Shown here one piece after another: positions 931 through 18,024 of a stretch of DNA of 33,471 bases (positions are counted from its first letter, which is position 1; each line of letters starts with the position of its first letter). The translations under genes were made by a program, and so were the position numbers. Source of the DNA: Zoogloeaceae bacterium (GTDB lineage Bacteria; Pseudomonadota; Gammaproteobacteria; Burkholderiales; Rhodocyclaceae); NCBI GenBank assembly GCA_031290955.1, contig JAISLJ010000146.1, positions 1 to 33,471 of the forward strand, read 5' to 3'. The notes below the pieces were generated by a model. The model searched no databases and was not told where the DNA came from. It saw only the letters and a list, made by a program, of their open reading frames with translations.

Positions 931-960
931 ATTCTAACATAGTGTTCCATATAGTGGTAA
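931..960 (-). promoter_or_regulatory. Predicted sigma70-like promoter for cas5-cas8c
   Basis: Minus strand TTACCA (955-960), 18 nt, TAGAAT (931-936); about 40 nt upstream of the cas5 TTG start. Confidence 0.55.
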
Positions 961-981
961 CGATTTTTCTGTTATAGGGTA
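945..981 (+). promoter_or_regulatory. Putative partial protospacer (PAM TTC 945-947, protospacer from 948) for the crRNA-like RNA
   Basis: TTC|CATATAGTGGTAACG versus pseudo-spacer CATATTGTGGTTGCC: positions 1-5 and 7-11 identical, mismatch at 6; 19/34 overall. Confidence 0.7.
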
Positions 982-988
982 ACATTCA

Positions 989-1020
989 GTTTCGCCGAAT
1001 ACACAGGCGTGGATTGAAAC
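989..1020 (+). CRISPR. Solitary type I-C-like CRISPR repeat (32 nt), 5' part of a putative CreR-type crRNA-like gene
   Basis: GTTTCGCCGAATACACAGGCGTGGATTGAAAC: 32 nt, CGCC/GGCG stem, and the conserved I-C 3' end GGCGTGGATTGAAAC, which would give an 11-nt TGGATTGAAAC handle after Cas5 cleavage. Confidence 0.85.
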
Positions 1021-1082: not shown

Positions 1083-3518
1083 TCACAGCACCAATGCCCC
1101 CGGATCGCCCGGTACACCGTCCACATTGACGCCCAGCGCCTTGTCATAGAGCAGGTCGTTTGCTTCCGACTGCACATACAATCCGGGACAATCGCTGCCC
1201 AGCGGCTCGATGTCGCCTTGTTCGAGCAGGCGTTTGATGTCCCATCGGTAGAGCGTGACGCCATAGCGTTGCAGCTTGCGCATGAGCCAGCGCTCTGGGC
1301 CTTGTTGCTTCAGTCGCTGGAGCCACATGTCGATCCCGCCAGCGTTTTCTTCGCTGCCATCATCATTTTCATCGCGCTGGTAACGGACAAAGACCGTCGC
1401 GCCTTCCTCGTTGTCAATCAGATGAAAGGCTTCCGCCGCATCACGGAATCTGACTGCGCCTGTTCTCCGATCCACACGCAACATATCGCAAATCCCCTTT
1501 GCGTCCAAAATGGCATCGCCATAGAGCTTGCGAAAATACCCGGCGAAACGTTCGACGCCCACCGGGTCTTCCTCTGGATGCAAGCCTGCCCACAATTGGC
1601 GGGTCTTTTCAGCCGCCATGCGCAGCAATCCTGGTGGCGCGGGTTGGGGCGGCACGAACACGTAGACATCGCCCTTTTCCAGCCGCCCTTCCCGATTGCA
1701 GCGCCCGGCGGCCTGGACAAGGGAATCCAGCCCCGCCAGGGCGCGATAGACCACCGGGAAATCCAGATCCACGCCCGCCTCGACCAGTTGCGTGCTGATG
1801 ACCCGAATCGGCGCGGGAGTCTCTTCCGCCGCCAGCGCCTGTCGCCGCGCCGACAGGGCGGTCTTGAGCGTCCGAATCACGTCGCTGCGATGATGGGCGC
1901 ACATCAGGCCAGACAGATGCCACAGGTTGCGCGGATCGCGCCTTTTCATGCGCTGGTAGAGATCACGCGCGTCGGCGCGGCGACCCACAATGACCAGGAC
2001 GGCATCATGCCGCATGATCTCATCCGCCAGATTTTCCCAATCGCAAGGCTGTGCGCAATCGGCGGGAAGATGAAAGCGCACCCGTTCCAGCGCGGCATAG
2101 AGTCCGGGCACGTCATCCACGATTTCCCGCACCTCGCCCGGCGCGAACCCGCGCAATCCGCGTTCACCCGCCAGATCAAAACTGACGCGGGCTTCCAGCG
2201 TCGGTTGCGTTGCCGTGCACAACACCAGGCTGACGCCATAATCCCGCACCAACAGGCGCAGGACATCGATCACCGGCTGGAGGTAGGCCACGGGCAACAA
2301 TTGCGCCTCGTCCAGCACGATGACGCTCTCCGCCAGATTGTGCAGCTTGCGGCAGCGGGAAGTCTTGCGGGCAAACAGGCTTTCCAGCAACTGCACGTTG
2401 GTGGTGACGACCAGCGGAGCGTCCCAGTTTTCGCAGGCGAGCCGGGAACGCGCCGTTTCCTGCCGCTCGTCCATTTCCGCGTTGCTGTGATGCTCGATGA
2501 CGTTTTCCTTGCCAAGAATGGCGCTGAAGACATCCGCCGTCTGCTCGATGATGCTGGTATATGGAATGGCGTAGATGACCCGGCGCTTGCCGTGCAGCTG
2601 CGCGTGTCGCAGGGCAAACGCCAGACTGGAGAGCGTCTTGCCGCCGCCGGTGGGAACGGTGAGGCTGAAAACGCCCGGCGTCAGCGTGGCCTTGGCGCGG
2701 CAAGCCTGCAAGACTTCGGCGCGCTTCCGGTTGACAGGCTGTTCTGCTTCCCCGCGCTGGACAAGCTGCTGCGCCATATCCCCCAGATGCTTCGTCAACA
2801 GGTCTTCCATTTTTGACAGCGACAAGAATCCCTTGCGGGTATGCGCCTTGGGAGGCGACATGAAGGCTTCGGTATCCAGGAAATCCGCATCCACCAGACA
2901 GGAAAACAACATGCGCACCCAGAGCGCGAAACGACCGGGAATGACTTCGTTCTTCCTGATGTTGTCGGTCTTGATGCTGCCGACTTCCGGCCACGCCAGT
3001 CTGGGCCGGAGAATGGCATCGGGAATGTCGGCCGCCAGCGCGTCACGCGCCTCTCTTTGGGCGTCGTCGGTTTGAAAACGCGCTTCCAAGCCTTTATCGA
3101 ACCAATTATCCAGCCCGCTATGGTGTCCGGCGATCAAGTAGGAAAGGATGCAGGCAAAGGCGGCGCCCAGGCGAGGTTCCTGTTCGGGCAGATATTTTTG
3201 CGCCCACAACGCCCCGGCGGCCGAATGCGTTTTATCGGCCCCCGCCACCCGACCTTCGATGTGCGCGTCCGGGTCGCCGCATTGCCGGATGTAACGCTGG
3301 AATCCGGCGCGAAATTTGCCAAGGTCATGCCAGATGCCTGCCCATTCCGCCCAAATCCCGGCGCCAAACACGGCGGCAAACTTCGCCGCTTGCCGCGCGA
3401 CTGCCTGTTGATGATCCGCCAGGTCGTGGGGCAGGAGTTTTCCATTCTCCTGTCGCAGGTGGGCAAGGAAGCACACTGCAGAGGAACTCCCGCCCCAATT
3501 GGAAATGTTTTCTTCCAT
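1083..3518 (-). CDS. cas3: Cas3 HD nuclease/helicase, type I-C
   Basis: ORF 1083-3728; likely start [10 protein letters not shown] at 3518. HD-domain region (…[21 protein letters not shown]…), Walker [17 protein letters not shown], helicase C motifs ([25 protein letters not shown]). Confidence 0.95.
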
Positions 3519-3644
3519 CACGAAACTCCCCGATGTATTCGCTACAAGACACTGGGATTGTACGCCACGCCTGTCGGTTTTGGAGGACGATGCGAGGAGT
3601 CGTCTGAAATGGAATTTCCCGACTTCCCCGAAAATTTCCCAACA

Positions 3645-3674
3645 TTGCGGGGGAAGTCCTGATTTGCTTATAAT
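3645..3674 (+). promoter_or_regulatory. Predicted sigma70 promoter upstream of hldD
   Basis: TTGCGG (3645-3650), 18 nt, TATAAT (3669-3674) in the divergent cas3/hldD intergenic region. Confidence 0.6.
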
Positions 3675-3720
3675 GCCACGCTTCATGATTCCTCGCGCCC
3701 GCGCTCTGGCGCTCCTCTCC

Positions 3721-4722
3721 ATGCCCAATCATATCGTCATCACCGGCGCGGCCGGGTTCATTGGTTCCAATCTCATCCGGGCGCTGAACCGGCGCGGGGA
3801 GACGGAGATCATTGCCGTCGACCACCTTGCGCACTCGGAAAAATTCCGGAACCTGGTCGATTGTGACATCGCGGATTTCCTCGACAAGGAGGATTTCATC
3901 GAGCGCCTCCAGCACGGCTGGTTCGATGGCGCGGTGCGCGCCGTCCTGCACGAGGGAGCCTGTTCCAACACGATGGAAACCGATGGCCGCTACATGATGG
4001 AAAACAACTACCGCTATTCCGCCATCCTGCTGGATTGGTGCCTGGGGGAAGAAGTGCCCTTCCTCTACGCCTCCTCGGCGGCGGTCTATGGTGGAGGCAA
4101 GGTGTTCGTCGAGGCGCGCGAGCACGAGGCGCCGCTCAACATCTATGGCTATTCCAAGTTCCTGTTCGACCAGTTCGTGCGCCGACGCTTGCCGGAGGCT
4201 TCCAGCCAGATTGTGGGCCTGCGCTATTTCAACGTCTATGGCCCAAGGGAGCAGCACAAGGAGCGCATGGCCTCGGTGGCCTATCACCATTTCCGGGAAT
4301 TCATGGAACAGAAGAAGGTACGACTTTTCGCGGCTTCGCACGGCTATGCCGACGGCGCGCAATTGCGGGATTTCATCCATGTGGATGATGTGGCCCATGT
4401 CAATCTCTTCTTCCTGGATCACCCGGAACAATCCGGCATTTTCAACGTGGGCACCGGGCGGGCGCAGAGTTTCAACGATATCGCCCTCGCCGCGGTGAAC
4501 GGTTGCCGGGCGCTGGCTGGGGAAGCGGCCTTGACGCTGGAGGAAATCGTCGGGCGCGGCTTTCTGGAATACATTCCCTTGCCTGAATCCCTAGAAGGAA
4601 AATACCAGCCCTTTACCGAAGCCGACCTTGCCCGCCTGCGTTCGGCGGGCTACGAGCAAGCTTTCGCCTCGGTGGAAGAGGGCGTTGCCCGCTATGTAGC
4701 CTGGCTTGGGCAACACGCATGA
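3721..4722 (+). CDS. hldD: ADP-L-glycero-D-manno-heptose 6-epimerase
   Basis: [36 protein letters not shown]…, NAD-binding GxxGxx[10 protein letters not shown] catalytic motif; characteristic HldD/RfaD sequence. Internal start of ORF 3499-4722. Confidence 0.93.
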
Positions 4723-10028: not shown

Positions 10029-13000
10029 TTACATCCTGTTCCGCGCAAATCTGCTCGGCGGATTTGGGGGCCAGACGATTTCGTTCCTGGCGTTTTTCAG
10101 AACCATCGTCCCGCCGACTGAATCCCTGAAGAGCACGATCTGGTCATTTCGGTCGATGTACTTCACTTTGCCGTTCTCGGCGACAAAAGCCAGACCGTTG
10201 GCGGCAAAGCCATGCGCCTCGTCGAAACGCGGCGAGATAACGAACTTGCCCTGCGCATCCATATATCCCCATTTGCCATTCTCTTCCCGGACGGGGGCCA
10301 GACCGTTATCGGCAAAACTCCCCGCCACATCCATGAAAAAATCCCCTGCATCGCCGATACGCAGGAGAATGACAAATTCGCCTTGCCGGTCAATGAATCC
10401 CGTTTTGTCATTGTCCTGCGCAACCGCCAGGCCGTTACTGGCAAAGCCCTCCGTGCCGATGAAACGCGGGGGAATAACGAACGCGCCCTGTTGGTCAATG
10501 AACCCGTATTTGTGATTTTCCACGGCCAGAGCCAGGCCGTTGTCGGAAAAAGACCAGGCGTTTTCAAAGCGCGGGGGAATCACGAATTCGCCCCGCTGGT
10601 CAATGTAGCCCCATTTTCCCTTTTCCATGACGCAAGCCAGACCGTTGGCGGCAAAATCCCATGCTCCATCAAAACGCGGGGGGATCACGAATTCGCCTTG
10701 CGTGTCAACATATCCCCATTTTTCTTTCTTCCACCATTTAGCACTCCTTTCCCGAACGCAAGCCAGACCGTTGGCGGCAAAACTCCACGCGAAGCCGAAA
10801 TGCGGTGAAATGGCGAACTTGCCCTGTTGGTCAATGAATCCCCATTTGCCATTCTCCTGGACAGCCGCCAGACCATTGGCGGCAAAATCCATTGCGTCGT
10901 CAAAACGTGGCGGAATGACCAGTTCGCCTTGCCCATTGAGGTAGGCAAACTTGTTGTCAAAATCAATTGGCGACAGGCGGGTGGAATTTGTTGCTTCAGC
11001 GGAATTTTCGCTGGCGACCGAAGGCGCAGCCACCTCACGCGGGAGAGAGAGATCAGGAATCCGATCAGCGAATCCGGGCGGCCAGAGGATTTCGTCCTTG
11101 GCGTTCTTCAGCACCTTTGTTTCGCCCACAAAATCCTCGAAGAGCACGATCTGGCCGTTTCGGTCAATGATGCTCCATTTTCCCTCCTCCTTGACTTCCG
11201 CCAGACCATTGTCGGCAAAGTCCTCTGCCTCGTCGAAACGTGGCGGGATCACGTATTTTCCCTGCTGGTCAATGTATCCCCATTTACCCTTCTCTTCCAC
11301 CAGCGCCAGATCGTTACGGGCAAAATTATCTGCGTTGTCAAAACGCAGGGGGATTGCGTACTTACCTTGTCGGTCAATAAATCCCCATTTGTCACCCTCC
11401 CTGACCAGAGCCAGACCATTGTCGGCAAAGTCCTCTACCGCGTCGAAACGTGGCAGAATCACGTATTTTCCCTGCTGGTCAATGTATCCCCATTTTCCAT
11501 TTCCGGCCAAAACACAAGCCAGACCGTTGTCGGCAAATAGCCATGCGCTGTCGAAACGCGAGGGGATCACGTACTCGCCCTGCTGGTCAATATATCCCCA
11601 TTGCCCATCCTCATCGGCAACATGAGCCAGACCGTTCTTGGCGAAGTTCCCTACGTTGTCAAAACGCGGGGGGATTGCGTACTTACCCTGTCGGTCAATA
11701 AATCCCCATTCGTCACCCTCCCTGACGGGAGCCAGACCACTGTCGGCAAAGTTCCCTACCGCGTCGAAACGTAGCGGGATCACGTACTTTCCCTGCTGGT
11801 CAATGTATCCCCATTTTCCATTCTCCTTGACGTAAGCCAGAGCGTTGTCGGCAAAGGGCCATGCGGAGTCGAAACGCGATGGGATGACGTACTTGCCCTG
11901 CTGGTCAATGAATCCCCATTTGCCATCCTCTTCGACAGGGGCCAGATCGTTGCCATCAAACCCACATGCGTTATCGAAATGCGGGGGGATAACGTACTTG
12001 CCCTGTTGGTCAATAAATCCCCATTTTTCCTTCTCTTCCACCAGCGCCAGACCGTTGCCATCAAACACCCATGCCTCGTCAAAATGCGGAGGAATGCACA
12101 ATTCTCCTCTTCCATTGATATAGCCGTATTTGCCATCAAACAGGATTCGCAACAAGTGCGCGGAATTTGTTGCCTCAGCAGCGGAATTATCGCTGGCGAC
12201 CGAAGGCGCAGCCACCTCACGCGAGAGAGATATATCAAGAATCCGATCAGCGAGCTTGAGCGGCCAGAGAATTTCGTCTTTGGCGTTCTTCAGCACCTTT
12301 GTTTCGCCAATGAAATCCTCGAAAAGTACCACCTCTCCCTTCCGGTCAATGACCATCCGCTTGCCATCTTCTTCGACACAGGCCAGACCGTTATCGGAAA
12401 ATTCGCCTGCCTTGTTGAAACGCCGTAGAATAACATACTTGCCCTGTTGGTCAATGTAGCCCCACTTTCCTTTCTCCCCCCATTTACCCTGGACTGGAGT
12501 CAGACCACTGGTGATAAATTTTTCGTCAACAAACCTGCCCTGTTGGTCAACGAACCTCCATTTGCCATCTTTCTTGACACGAGCCAGACCGTCGTCGGCA
12601 AAATGCCATGTGAAGTCAAAGCTAAATGTGTCGTCAAAACGCGGGGGAATGACAAACCTACCCCGCTGATCAATATATCCCCATTTTCCATTCTCTTTGA
12701 CGGAGGCCAGACCGTTGGCGGCAAAAGTTTCTGCTCTATCGAAACGCGGGGGGATGACAAACTCGCCCTGCTGATCGATGTATCCCCATTTGCCATTCTC
12801 CACCTCCCGGACCGGAGCCAGGCCATTCTTGGCAAAATCGTCTGCGTGGTCGAAACGCGGGGGGATGACGTACTCGCCTTGCCTGTTGATGTACCCGAAT
12901 TTTCCCATATCTTCTTCAGCATCTTCTACGACGGAAGCCAGACCATTATCGGCAAAGCTGCCTGCTATCGTGAAGCGCGGGGGAATTACGTACACACCCT

Positions 13001-14462
13001 GCCGGTCAATGTACCCGTATTTACCATTCTCCATGTCAATGACGCAAGCCAGACCGCTGTCGTCAAAGCCCAGAGTGTCTTCAAAATGCGGGGCAATGAC
13101 GATCTCGCCCTGCCGGTCAAGAAATCCCCATTTGCCATCCTTTTGGACAGGAATCCGATCCTTGTCAAAATCTTCTATGGAAACGTTTGTGCTGTCGAAA
13201 CGCGGCGGGATGCGCAATTCTCCCTTTCCATTGATATAGCCATATTTGCCATCAAACTGGATGGGTGACAGGCGGTCAGGATTTATTCCTTCGCAGGAGA
13301 TGGAATCCTCACCGATGGCCAGTGGTACAGCCGTATCGCAAATCCGGGTAGCGCGTTCGGAAGGCCAGACGATTTCGTTCCTGGCGTTTTTCAGAACCTT
13401 TGTCCTGCCGACAAAATCCTCGAAGAGCACAATTTGCCCCTTCCGGTTGATGACCATCCGCTTGCCCTTTTCTTCGACACAAGCCAGACAGTTGTCGACA
13501 AAATCCTCTGCTTCGTCGAGGCGCGGGGGAACGATGTATTTGCCCTGCTGGTCAATGTATCCCCATTTTCCTTTCTTCCACCATTTTCCCTTCTCTTTGA
13601 CCAAAGCCAGACCGTTGTCGGCAAAGATCCCTGCGTCGTCGAAACACGGATGGATACGGAATTTTCCCTGCTTGTCGATGTATCCCCATTTGCCACGCTC
13701 CTTGACGGGAGCCAGACCGTTATCGGCAAAATCCCATGCTTCGTCGAAACGCGGGGAAATCATGAATCTGCCCCGTTGATCAATGTACCCATATTTGCCC
13801 TTCTCCGCGACGGCAGCCCGACCGTTATCGGCAAAGAATCCTGCCTTGTCGAAGCGCGGCGGGATGGCGAATTTTCCCTGCGAATCAATGTATCCCCATT
13901 TGCCCTTCTCTTTGACCAGCGCCAGACCGTTATCAGAAAAACCCCATGTTTCGTCGAAACGCGGGGAGATGACGAACTCGCCTTGCGGGTCAATGAACCC
14001 ATATCTGCCTTTCTCTTTGGCCGGGGCCAGGCCATTGTCGGCAAAGCGCCCTGCGAAGTCGAAACGCGGCGGGATCACGTATTCGCCTTGCAGTCCAATG
14101 TACCCATCTTTGCCATTCTCTTCAACAGGAGCCAGACCATTATCGGAAAAAGCCCCTGCGTGATCAAAACGCAGCGGGATGACGTACTTGCCCTGCACAT
14201 CAATGTATCCCCATCTCTCCTTCTCCTGGACACCCGCCAGACCGTTGTTGGCAAAGTCCCCTACTTCGTCAAAACGTGGTGGAATGACCAATTCGCCTTT
14301 TTCATTGAGATAACCGTATTTTCCCTCAAACTGGATCGGGAACAAGCTTGCGGAATTTGTTTCTTCACAGGCGGAATCATCGTCGACAGCCAGCGGAATC
14401 GCCGCCCCATCCTGGAACCGCATGGATTGCAAACGACGGAAAATGGACATGGCAGTCTCCAT
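10029..14462 (-). CDS. Very large WG-repeat protein (1477 aa) made of four fused modules
   Basis: Dozens of WG repeats (KWGYIDQQGKYVIPPRFD…). Four module ends carry the cap (I/N)(D/R)…VLFEDFVGETKVLKNAKDEILWP, three of them followed by linkers that resemble the mature N-terminus of the standalone protein. Confidence 0.85.
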   Translation of the reverse strand: METAMSIFRRLQSMRFQDGAAIPLAVDDDSACEETNSASLFPIQFEGKYGYLNEKGELVIPPRFDEVGDFANNGLAGVQEKERWGYIDVQGKYVIPLRFDHAGAFSDNGLAPVEENGKDGYIGLQGEYVIPPRFDFAGRFADNGLAPAKEKGRYGFIDPQGEFVISPRFDETWGFSDNGLALVKEKGKWGYIDSQGKFAIPPRFDKAGFFADNGRAAVAEKGKYGYIDQRGRFMISPRFDEAWDFADNGLAPVKERGKWGYIDKQGKFRIHPCFDDAGIFADNGLALVKEKGKWWKKGKWGYIDQQGKYIVPPRLDEAEDFVDNCLACVEEKGKRMVINRKGQIVLFEDFVGRTKVLKNARNEIVWPSERATRICDTAVPLAIGEDSISCEGINPDRLSPIQFDGKYGYINGKGELRIPPRFDSTNVSIEDFDKDRIPVQKDGKWGFLDRQGEIVIAPHFEDTLGFDDSGLACVIDMENGKYGYIDRQGVYVIPPRFTIAGSFADNGLASVVEDAEEDMGKFGYINRQGEYVIPPRFDHADDFAKNGLAPVREVENGKWGYIDQQGEFVIPPRFDRAETFAANGLASVKENGKWGYIDQRGRFVIPPRFDDTFSFDFTWHFADDGLARVKKDGKWRFVDQQGRFVDEKFITSGLTPVQGKWGEKGKWGYIDQQGKYVILRRFNKAGEFSDNGLACVEEDGKRMVIDRKGEVVLFEDFIGETKVLKNAKDEILWPLKLADRILDISLSREVAAPSVASDNSAAEATNSAHLLRILFDGKYGYINGRGELCIPPHFDEAWVFDGNGLALVEEKEKWGFIDQQGKYVIPPHFDNACGFDGNDLAPVEEDGKWGFIDQQGKYVIPSRFDSAWPFADNALAYVKENGKWGYIDQQGKYVIPLRFDAVGNFADSGLAPVREGDEWGFIDRQGKYAIPPRFDNVGNFAKNGLAHVADEDGQWGYIDQQGEYVIPSRFDSAWLFADNGLACVLAGNGKWGYIDQQGKYVILPRFDAVEDFADNGLALVREGDKWGFIDRQGKYAIPLRFDNADNFARNDLALVEEKGKWGYIDQQGKYVIPPRFDEAEDFADNGLAEVKEEGKWSIIDRNGQIVLFEDFVGETKVLKNAKDEILWPPGFADRIPDLSLPREVAAPSVASENSAEATNSTRLSPIDFDNKFAYLNGQGELVIPPRFDDAMDFAANGLAAVQENGKWGFIDQQGKFAISPHFGFAWSFAANGLACVRERSAKWWKKEKWGYVDTQGEFVIPPRFDGAWDFAANGLACVMEKGKWGYIDQRGEFVIPPRFENAWSFSDNGLALAVENHKYGFIDQQGAFVIPPRFIGTEGFASNGLAVAQDNDKTGFIDRQGEFVILLRIGDAGDFFMDVAGSFADNGLAPVREENGKWGYMDAQGKFVISPRFDEAHGFAANGLAFVAENGKVKYIDRNDQIVLFRDSVGGTMVLKNARNEIVWPPNPPSRFARNRM

Positions 14463-14965: not shown

Positions 14966-16132
14966 TCAGAAGGTTTGTTCTGGTTCGCTTTCCTCTTCCG
15001 TGATACCCAAGTGGCCGATGTGCGACATCAGGTCGTGGTTGGCGGTGTGGCGGCTCTTCAGTTTGATTTGCAGGCGCAGGTCGTTTACCGCGTCCGCGTT
15101 GCGCAGGGCGTCCTCGTAGGTGATGAGGTCCGCTTCGTAGAGGTCGAAAAGCGCCTGGTCGAAAGTCTGCATGCCCTGTTCGCGGGATTTCTTCATGATT
15201 TCCTTGATGAACGGCACATCGCCCTTGAAGATCAGGTCGGCGATCAAAGGAGAGTTGAGCATCACCTCCACCGCCGCCACCCGGCCCTTGCTGTTCTTCA
15301 TGGGAATCAGGCGCTGGGAGACGAAGGCGCGCAGATTGAGGGACAAATCCATCAGGAACTGCTGCCGACGCTCCGCCGGGAAGAAGTTCACGATCCGGTC
15401 AATCGCCTGGTTGGCGTTGTTGGCGTGCAGGGTCGCCATGCACAGGTGGCCGGTTTCCGAGAAGGCAATGGCGTATTCCATGGTTTCCCGGTCACGGATT
15501 TCCCCCATCAGCACCACGTCCGGCGCTTGCCGCAGGGTGTTCTTGAGCGCGGTATCCCAGTTCTCGGTATCCAGCCCGATTTCGCGCTGGGTGATGATGC
15601 AGTTCTTGTGCTCGTGCACATACTCGATCGGGTTTTCGATGGTGATGATGTGGCCGTTGCTGTTCTCGTTGCGGTAATTGATGAGCGCCGCCAAGGACGA
15701 GGTCTTGCCGCTGCTGGTGCCCCCCACGAGAACCACGAGGCCGCGCTTGATGAGCGAGACATCCTTCAGGATGGGCGGCAAGCCCAGTTCCTCAATGGTC
15801 GGGATATGCGCGTTGATGGTGCGCAACACCAAACCCACCCGTCCTTGCTGGATGAAGGCATTGGCCCGGAAGCGCCCGATGCCCGTTGGCGAAATGGCGA
15901 AGTTGCATTCCTTGGTGGCCTCGAATTCGGCCGCCTGGCGATCATTCATAACGGAATGCGCCAATTCCGTGGTGTGCTGCGGCGTCAGCGCCTGGTTGGA
16001 AATCGGCATGACCCGACCGTCGATCTTGATGGCAGGGGGATAGCCGACGGTAATGAAAAGATCGGATGCCTTCTTGCTGACCATGAGGCGCAGAAGGTCA
16101 TAGACGAAATTGAGTGCCTGATCGCGTTCCAT
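14966..16132 (-). CDS. pilU: Type IV pilus retraction ATPase paralog PilU
   Basis: 388-aa PilT/PilU ATPase; Walker A GGTSSGKT, Asp box GEIRDRETM, ATLHANNANQAIDRI; PilU-like C-terminus, adjacent to pilT. Confidence 0.92.
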   Translation of the reverse strand: MERDQALNFVYDLLRLMVSKKASDLFITVGYPPAIKIDGRVMPISNQALTPQHTTELAHSVMNDRQAAEFEATKECNFAISPTGIGRFRANAFIQQGRVGLVLRTINAHIPTIEELGLPPILKDVSLIKRGLVVLVGGTSSGKTSSLAALINYRNENSNGHIITIENPIEYVHEHKNCIITQREIGLDTENWDTALKNTLRQAPDVVLMGEIRDRETMEYAIAFSETGHLCMATLHANNANQAIDRIVNFFPAERRQQFLMDLSLNLRAFVSQRLIPMKNSKGRVAAVEVMLNSPLIADLIFKGDVPFIKEIMKKSREQGMQTFDQALFDLYEADLITYEDALRNADAVNDLRLQIKLKSRHTANHDLMSHIGHLGITEEESEPEQTF

Positions 16133-16169
16133 GCTGATGTCTCCATGAATGAATGATTGGAAATGGCTG

Positions 16170-17216
16170 TCAGTCGCCCGCGAACGCTGACTTGTCCACC
16201 GCCCGGATGCGGGCTTCCGCCGCCGAAACGATATTGTTCTTCACGAGTTCCTTCAGGTTCTGGTCAAGCGTTTGCATGCCCAGGGATTGCCCGGTCTGGA
16301 TGGCGGAATACATCTGCGCCACCTTGTTTTCCCGGATAAGGTTGCGGATGGCGTGGGTGCCGATCATGATCTCGTAGGCCGCTACCCGACCGCTGCCGTC
16401 CTTCACTTTCAGGAGTGTCTGCGAGATGACCGCGCGCAATGATTCGGAAAGCATGGTGCGCAGCATATCCTTTTCTTCCGCCGGAAACACGTCGATGATC
16501 CGGTCTACCGTCTTGGCCGCCGAGGAGGTGTGCAGGGTGGCGAACACCAGGTGGCCCGTTTCCGCCGCCGTCATGGCGAGGCGGATGGTTTCCAGGTCGC
16601 GCATTTCGCCGACGAGGATCGTGTCCGGGTCTTCCCGCAGGGCGGAGCGCAGCGCGTTGGCGAATGACAGGGTGTGCGGCCCCACTTCCCGCTGGTTGAT
16701 CACGCATTTCCTTGGGACATGCACGAATTCGATCGGGTCTTCGATGGTGAGGACATGGTTGAATTCGTTGTCGTTGATGTAATCCACCATCGCCGCAAGC
16801 GTCGTGGATTTGCCGGAACCCGTCGCCCCGGTGACAAGCACGATCCCCCGTGGGGTGGAGGCAATGTCCCGGAAGATCTTCGGACAGTTGAGTTCATCGA
16901 ACGTGAGCACCTTGGAGGGAATGGTCCGGAAGACCGCCCCCGCACCACGATCCTGCACGAAGGCATTGACCCGGAAGCGGGCCAGGTTGGCGATGGCAAA
17001 GGAAAAGTCAATCTCCAGGTTTTCCTCGTATGCCTTGCGTTGCGAATCGCTCATGATCTCATAGATCATGTTGTGCACTTCCGTGTGCGTCATCACGGGC
17101 AGGTTGATCTTGCGGATGTCGCCATGCACGCGGATCATGGGAGGAAGGCCGGCGGAAAGGTGCAGGTCGGATGCCTGGTTCTTGACGCCGAATGCGAGAA
17201 GTTCAGTAATGTCCAT
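16170..17216 (-). CDS. pilT: Type IV pilus twitching motility ATPase PilT
   Basis: MDITELLAFGVKNQASDLHLSAGLPPMIRVHGDIRKINLP…, Walker A GATGSGKST, GEMRDLETIRLAMTAAETGHLVFATLHTSSAAKT. Confidence 0.95.
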   Translation of the reverse strand: MDITELLAFGVKNQASDLHLSAGLPPMIRVHGDIRKINLPVMTHTEVHNMIYEIMSDSQRKAYEENLEIDFSFAIANLARFRVNAFVQDRGAGAVFRTIPSKVLTFDELNCPKIFRDIASTPRGIVLVTGATGSGKSTTLAAMVDYINDNEFNHVLTIEDPIEFVHVPRKCVINQREVGPHTLSFANALRSALREDPDTILVGEMRDLETIRLAMTAAETGHLVFATLHTSSAAKTVDRIIDVFPAEEKDMLRTMLSESLRAVISQTLLKVKDGSGRVAAYEIMIGTHAIRNLIRENKVAQMYSAIQTGQSLGMQTLDQNLKELVKNNIVSAAEARIRAVDKSAFAGD

Positions 17217-17313
17217 AGTCGGGTTCCGGTAATTGGCTTTGTTGAATCGCCACACAGTATACTGCACGAGATGCACGAGCTGCGCATGAAGCACAACATC
17301 ATTCCAAGCGATT

Positions 17314-18024
17314 ATGAACGAAATTACCAGGAATCTGCAAGCGGTTCGGGAGAAAATCTGGAAAACCGCGTGCAGTGTGGCAAGAAAACCGGAAGGAATC
17401 CGTCTGTTGGCGGTGAGCAAGACGCATCCGGTTGCCAGCCTGCTGGAGGCGATTGCGGCTGGGCAGCGGGATTTTGGCGAAAACTACGTCCAGGAAGGCG
17501 TCGGCAAAATCCACGTGCTCCGCGAACGCTTGCCGGAAGTGCCGCTGGTTTGGCATTTCATCGGCCCCCTGCAAGGCAACAAGACCCGGCTGGTCGCCGA
17601 GCATTTCGACTGGGTGCACACCATCGACCGCATCCGGATCGCCGAGCGCCTTGCCGCCCAGCGCCCGGCCTCCCTGCCGCCGCTCCAGGTTTGTGTGCAG
17701 GTAAACATTTCCGGGGAGGCGACGAAAAGCGGCGTCCCGCCGACAGAGGTTCCCGAACTGTGCCGCGCTGTGGCAGAATTGCCACGCCTTGCCCTGCGCG
17801 GACTGATGAGCATCCCCGCGCCGGAAACGGATTTCGAGCGCCAGCGCCCTGCCCTGCGCGCCCTGCGGCAAATCTTCCTCGCCCTCAGGGACGAGGGGAT
17901 GGCGCTGGATACCCTCTCGATGGGCATGACTCACGATCTGGAAGCCGCCATCTTGGAGGGAAGCACGCTGGTGCGCGTGGGCACAGCCATCTTTGGAACG
18001 AGAGAAACGAGAACATCCACATGA
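17314..18024 (+). CDS. yggS: YggS family PLP homeostasis protein
   Basis: LLAVSKTHPV, DFGENYVQEGVGKI, WHFIGPLQGNKTRLV, LSMGMTHDLEAAILEGSTLVRVGTAIFGTR. Confidence 0.93.
   Translation: MNEITRNLQAVREKIWKTACSVARKPEGIRLLAVSKTHPVASLLEAIAAGQRDFGENYVQEGVGKIHVLRERLPEVPLVWHFIGPLQGNKTRLVAEHFDWVHTIDRIRIAERLAAQRPASLPPLQVCVQVNISGEATKSGVPPTEVPELCRAVAELPRLALRGLMSIPAPETDFERQRPALRALRQIFLALRDEGMALDTLSMGMTHDLEAAILEGSTLVRVGTAIFGTRETRTST

Follow-up and report, generated by a model that had tools for sequence, protein, structure and literature searches.

Natural guide RNAs are said to control the cas genes of clustered regularly interspaced short palindromic repeats (CRISPR) systems in the form of CreR (cas-regulating RNA), reportedly the subject of "Widespread RNA-based cas regulation" in Cell Host Microbe in 2023, and of the long trans-activating CRISPR RNA (tracrRNA) of Streptococcus pyogenes, reportedly the guide in Cas9 autorepression. 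CreR RNAs have been reported to autorepress types I-B, I-E, and V-A (PMC13131331, PMC12737573). They are CRISPR RNA (crRNA)-like RNAs from a degenerate repeat unit beside the cas genes and pair to a limited extent with a cas promoter, anchored by a protospacer-adjacent motif (PAM; PMC12737573, PMC13131331). Such a repeat unit and such pairing are also present at the locus described here, at positions 989-1054 of a 33,471-nt stretch of DNA from a Zoogloeaceae bacterium (assembly GCA_031290955.1, contig JAISLJ010000146.1; hereafter the window). This element is very probably a CreR-type crRNA-like RNA by which type I-C Cascade represses its own cas5-cas8c-cas7 operon. As with CreR, the autorepression would be expected to be lifted by crRNAs and anti-CRISPRs, an expectation that comes here from sequence alone. 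Unlike the reported I-B, I-E, and V-A cases, the window holds a type I-C system, Cas5c is the expected processor, and the guide lies antisense between cas3 and cas5.

Three other described systems resemble the locus in part. CreTA has degenerate repeats, partial complementarity, and Cascade as the repressor (PMC9458426, PMC12737573); however, CreT is a toxic RNA, whereas no toxin was found in the window and its relatives carry a small membrane protein. CrePA, the pair of the KilA-N protein toxin CreP and CreA, likewise has a Cascade-repressed protein gene beside cas (PMC12737573), but the protein of the relatives is a 40-55-aa single-span peptide without a Pfam match, and the window has none. 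CreTA and CrePA are marked by a toxin gene or toxic RNA under the targeted promoter; no candidate peptide was found here between the target and cas5, and a toxic RNA could still be encoded there. Cas9 autorepression also combines a natural guide, partial pairing, and repressed cas promoters (PMC13131331), but it belongs to class 2 and its guide is tracr-derived. CreR-type control is already known, and no new principle is involved; what appears to be new is the I-C subtype, together with a clear guide rule read from natural sequences and the associated family of membrane peptides. No report of a type I-C CreR was found in the literature searched; the primary CreR paper lay outside that search and may hold a prediction for I-C.

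Putative guide, target site, and predicted cas5 promoter in the window

The element is a repeat-guide unit that adjoins the cas genes and stands outside an array. It begins with a degenerate type I-C repeat (989-1020, plus strand) located between cas3 and cas5c, in which a CGCC/GGCG stem (993-996 and 1006-1009) is followed by the 11-nt handle TGGATTGAAAC (1010-1020). The 34-nt pseudo-spacer of the guide RNA follows on the same strand (1021-1054; seed 1021-1031). Folding of the repeat is far above that of shuffled sequences (z -3.4), and Rfam CRISPR-DR9 matches it below threshold (E 0.021).

Pairing comparison and pattern searches placed the target site, or protospacer, at 948-981 of the plus strand, with its seed at 948-958. 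The guide CATATTGTGGTTGCC (from 1021) and the site CATATAGTGGTAACG (from 948) are identical at positions 1-5 and 7-11 (10/10 in the seed), mismatched at 6 and 12, and matched at 19/34 positions overall; our recount agreed in every figure and coordinate with the original prediction. The TTC that it had placed at 945-947 is indeed read there on the plus strand, and TTC is an experimentally confirmed PAM of type I-C (PMC8406640). With up to two mismatches allowed, chance would supply the pattern TTCCATATNGTGGT 0.24 times over the entire 33-kb window; the 945-981 site matches it exactly, and the 2.0 Mb assembly holds no other exact match. A scan of 850-1130 for promoters returned one sigma-70-like site only (shuffles mean 0.2), which is the TTACCA-18-TAGAAT sequence already proposed as the cas5 promoter (931-960, minus strand). 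Its -35, TTACCA, lies at 960-955 and its extended -10, TGT-TAGAAT, at 936-931, so that TG precedes the -10 and TAGAAT lies 8 nt beyond the PAM. The distance from the target to the cas5 start is 55 nt. The limited complementarity thus falls over a predicted cas promoter beside a proper PAM.

From this arrangement we infer a course of events in which 989-1054 (up to about 1078) would be transcribed as a crRNA-like regulatory RNA for the adjoining type I-C system. Cas5c would cut this RNA at the base of the small hairpin, after 1009, leaving the 11-nt handle and the guide. Once the RNA is loaded into Cascade, the guide seed would pair beside the TTC PAM with the cas5-cas8c-cas7 promoter at 945-981, and Cascade would occupy the -35 and the spacer and block initiation, its PAM side abutting the extended -10. 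Pairing of ~10-11 seed bases and scattered matches should yield no full R-loop and no Cas3 cutting; indeed, since I-C killing requires about 27 matched bases (PMC8406640), the 19 scattered matches of 34 predict binding without cutting. In this way Cascade would limit its own abundance until genuine crRNAs or anti-CRISPRs drew it off and freed the promoter. Since the target ends ~8 nt before the repeat, a guide promoter near the repeat would also be covered by target-bound Cascade, making the guide self-limiting.

Recurrence of the pairing upstream of type I-C cas5 genes

The survey covered 160 non-redundant cas5c upstream regions, drawn from 80 genome loci and from additional genomes at the level of order, class, and phylum. 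To be counted, a region needed a handle with at least 6/8 of ATTGAAAC, with GAAA, and a TTC-flanked site of its own, which the 11 bases after the handle had to match at no fewer than 9 of the ten seed positions (1-5 and 7-11). Results showed that 22 of the 160 regions carry such an element, and in 17 of these the guide and its target share a strand. When the PAM was ignored in the search, TTC was by far the most frequent PAM among all seed matches. When guides were swapped against the DNA of other regions, 4 TTC matches were obtained in 3975 pairs, which, together with the expectation of 0.24 given above, upholds the earlier claim that the match in the window is unlikely to be fortuitous. Guide sequences vary between loci, and the agreement is that of each guide with the target of its own locus. 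Since at least 21 further I-C cas5 loci show the pattern, and their guides are unrelated, the pairing itself appears to be what is conserved, which would be the signature of Cascade-guided promoter repression. These comparisons support the Cascade autorepression that the original prediction had proposed.

In type I-C systems, Cas5c cuts at the stem base and leaves an 11-nt handle, and the position of the hairpin fits this processing. In 19/26 elements, a stem of 4 bp or more ends exactly 11 nt before the guide, compared with a mean of 4.6 and a maximum of 10 in 200 shuffles, and the stem is kept though its bases vary between most loci. The handle also tracks the cognate array repeat. In the three GAGG-type genomes checked for this (L177, L178, and L181), the array repeats are GAGGATTGAAAC, and GAGG-type handles are found in their elements (L100, L102, and L099). 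Promoter geometry recurs as well: 10 of 16 guide-antisense loci have a TATAAT-like box (at least 5/6) that lies opposite the guide strand and no more than 18 nt beyond the PAM, vs. 2.3 in shuffled sequences (0/1000 reach 10), and in L141 and L145 the PAM is followed by TTGACA-16-TATACT, with a perfect -35.

To these elements we added L086, which has a TTT PAM, giving a match profile of 23 elements (22 with TTC). Matches numbered 22-23 at each of positions 1-5, 10 at position 6, 21-23 at positions 7-11, 4 at position 12, 21 at position 13, and 20 at position 14; the match rate reached background by about position 18. Positions 1-5 and 7-11 had been used for selection, whereas 13 and 14 had not, and these two are far above chance (P 3e-8 and 4e-7, respectively) even at a 35% match rate. 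In type I R-loops every sixth base is flipped out, which fits the free positions 6 and 12. The profile may therefore serve as a natural map of the guide positions relevant for repression without cutting, namely 1-5, 7-11, and 13-14.

Several observations weigh against a working CreR in the window. Its guide is matched at position 14 but mismatched at 13. A consensus search for a promoter of the guide RNA did not rise above shuffled sequences (5/23 elements vs. 4.6). The closest Cas5 relatives (L009-L011, L013, and L114) have a short cas3-cas5 gap from which the element is absent, and the intergenic DNA of the window was found in 0/199 other genomes of the family, leaving the element without a close orthologue. 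No CRISPR array was found in the source assembly, a 2.0 Mb, 73%-complete metagenome-assembled genome in which the repeat core GGCGTGGATTGAAAC has a single exact occurrence; no cognate repeat is thus available for comparison, and the system may be inactive. Finally, read-through from cas3 could still feed cas5.

The membrane-peptide gene of relatives and alternative explanations

In most relatives whose guide is antisense to cas5, the gap between target and cas5 measures about 170-230 nt and holds a conserved frame of 40-55 aa. The peptide takes the form MDWxGxLRExRLLLxQLPxxRFYxxxxLxL, with an amphipathic start and a single hydrophobic span. A profile built from 11 of these peptides found matches in 15/160 regions; L022 is among these, as are L135 and L136, where the peptide is encoded on the opposite strand. 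A guide is present in 14 of the 15 (Fisher P 6e-13). Members just upstream of cas5 are L012, L016, L019, L022, L045, L060, L084 (from the culturable Methyloversatilis thermotolerans 3t), L085, L099, L100, L102, L115, L139, L191, and L193. L022 is the member in which the guide was not found, and it may have lost its repressor guide. Since codon changes are mainly synonymous (11 to 2; 19 to 6; the L135/L136 comparison was out of register and left out), the sequences indicate that the peptide is under purifying selection. When 399 genomes of the order were searched with the peptide, all matches below E 1e-3 but one adjoined cas5, and L191 and L193, reached through this search alone, each have a guide, a TTC, and a 10/10 seed. 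The exception, L190 (1456-1608), is an orphan member of the family in a stretch in which no recognized cas genes, guide, or array were found, and it is not counted as support. Pfam gave no accepted family for the five small proteins searched, four of which belong to the peptide family. In L141, L145, L165, and L171, other small basic or hydrophobic frames, unlike the main family, occupy the interval from an opposite-strand target to the guide and are possibly other Cascade-repressed small proteins. In many lineages the same guide device would thus seem to guard a gene for a small membrane protein, and by analogy with CreTA and CrePA (PMC12737573) the peptide is a natural candidate for a toxin.

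These relatives bear on the alternative that survives best, namely that the window element is the CreA antitoxin half of a CRISPR-repressed toxin pair, its toxin gene lost or hidden and repression of cas5 a leftover or by-product. Such a history would suit a target that in most antisense-guide relatives stands before the peptide gene, the guide that accompanies nearly every member, and the selection on the peptide. In the window, however, an open reading frame scan between target and cas5 found a single frame of 23 aa, non-membrane and without a Shine-Dalgarno (SD) sequence, and the peptide profile matched neither the window region nor the assembly. Nor is there a peptide gene in L079 and L088, where guide and target likewise lie over cas5. 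We regard the CreA explanation as improbable. Since the target lies so close to the cas5 start and no peptide gene, nor any other toxin gene under the target site, was found by scan or profile, the window would represent the CreR form, in which the guide is predicted to act directly on cas5. Direct cas5 autorepression may nevertheless be a derived state, because the promoter in most antisense-guide relatives first serves the membrane-peptide gene that is absent here. More broadly, and tentatively, it is possible that I-C systems of Proteobacteria contain an undescribed module in which a Cascade guide represses the promoter of a 40-55-aa amphipathic single-span peptide beside cas5, whose gene often reads in the same direction as the cas operon. 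If Cascade were lost or inhibited, a toxic (or signaling) peptide would be released together with new Cascade, and the window would hold a peptide-free form whose former antitoxin guide is now an autorepressor only.

We also considered that the element is dead and decaying, the functionless residue of a CRISPR array whose spacer was derived from the genome itself. The repeat is degenerate and solitary, the assembly yielded no array, and at 989-1054 there is no direct-repeat family, an array requiring at least two near-identical repeats with spacers. However, many loci with different guides keep the seed, the PAM, the stem, and the position of the promoter together, and decay is not expected to spare exactly positions 1-5, 7-11, and 13-14; this explanation was rejected on the joint conservation and is very improbable. 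That the seed match of the window is mere chance, with the elements of relatives being real, would suit the lack of the element in the closest Cas5 relatives but is extremely improbable, since an exact TTC and 10-base match is expected far below once per 33 kb, the match is placed and oriented as it is in relatives, and the swap controls and the positional match profile speak against it.

Genomic setting and significance

The cas genes around the putative CreR are all on the minus strand. The cas5c (Cas5d) gene (239-892; TIGR01876, E 1.7e-57) has a TTG start and the SD sequence AGGAGGT at 904-898, and the start of cas8c/csd1 (3-242; TIGR01863, E 2.6e-10) is truncated by the contig end. Upstream of the element lies cas3 (1083-3728), with HD and helicase parts (TIGR01587, E 2.8e-33; TIGR01596, E 1.7e-28); its promoter does not appear to be a second target of the guide, as the pattern search of the 33 kb found no further target site. 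Between the element and the cas3 stop, a GC-rich hairpin of 11 bp (1053-1078; -22.6 kcal/mol, z -6.3) is likely the 3' boundary of the creR or cas3 transcript; by the T-run criterion there is no intrinsic terminator at this hairpin. In the Azonexus-like loci L009-L011, a hairpin follows cas3 in a similar place. Elsewhere on the minus strand, the window encodes a 1477-aa protein with ~30 WG repeats (10029-14462; PF14903, 1124 bits) and two adjoining type II/IV secretion ATPase-like genes (14966-17420; T2SSE).

Self-control of Cas expression through guide RNAs is known from a few subtypes. For type I-C, which is among the commonest bacterial types, the comparative evidence is strong and suggests a general rule. 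That a small membrane peptide recurs under this control points, in addition, to a further class of CRISPR-guarding modules, which may be responsive to anti-CRISPRs.
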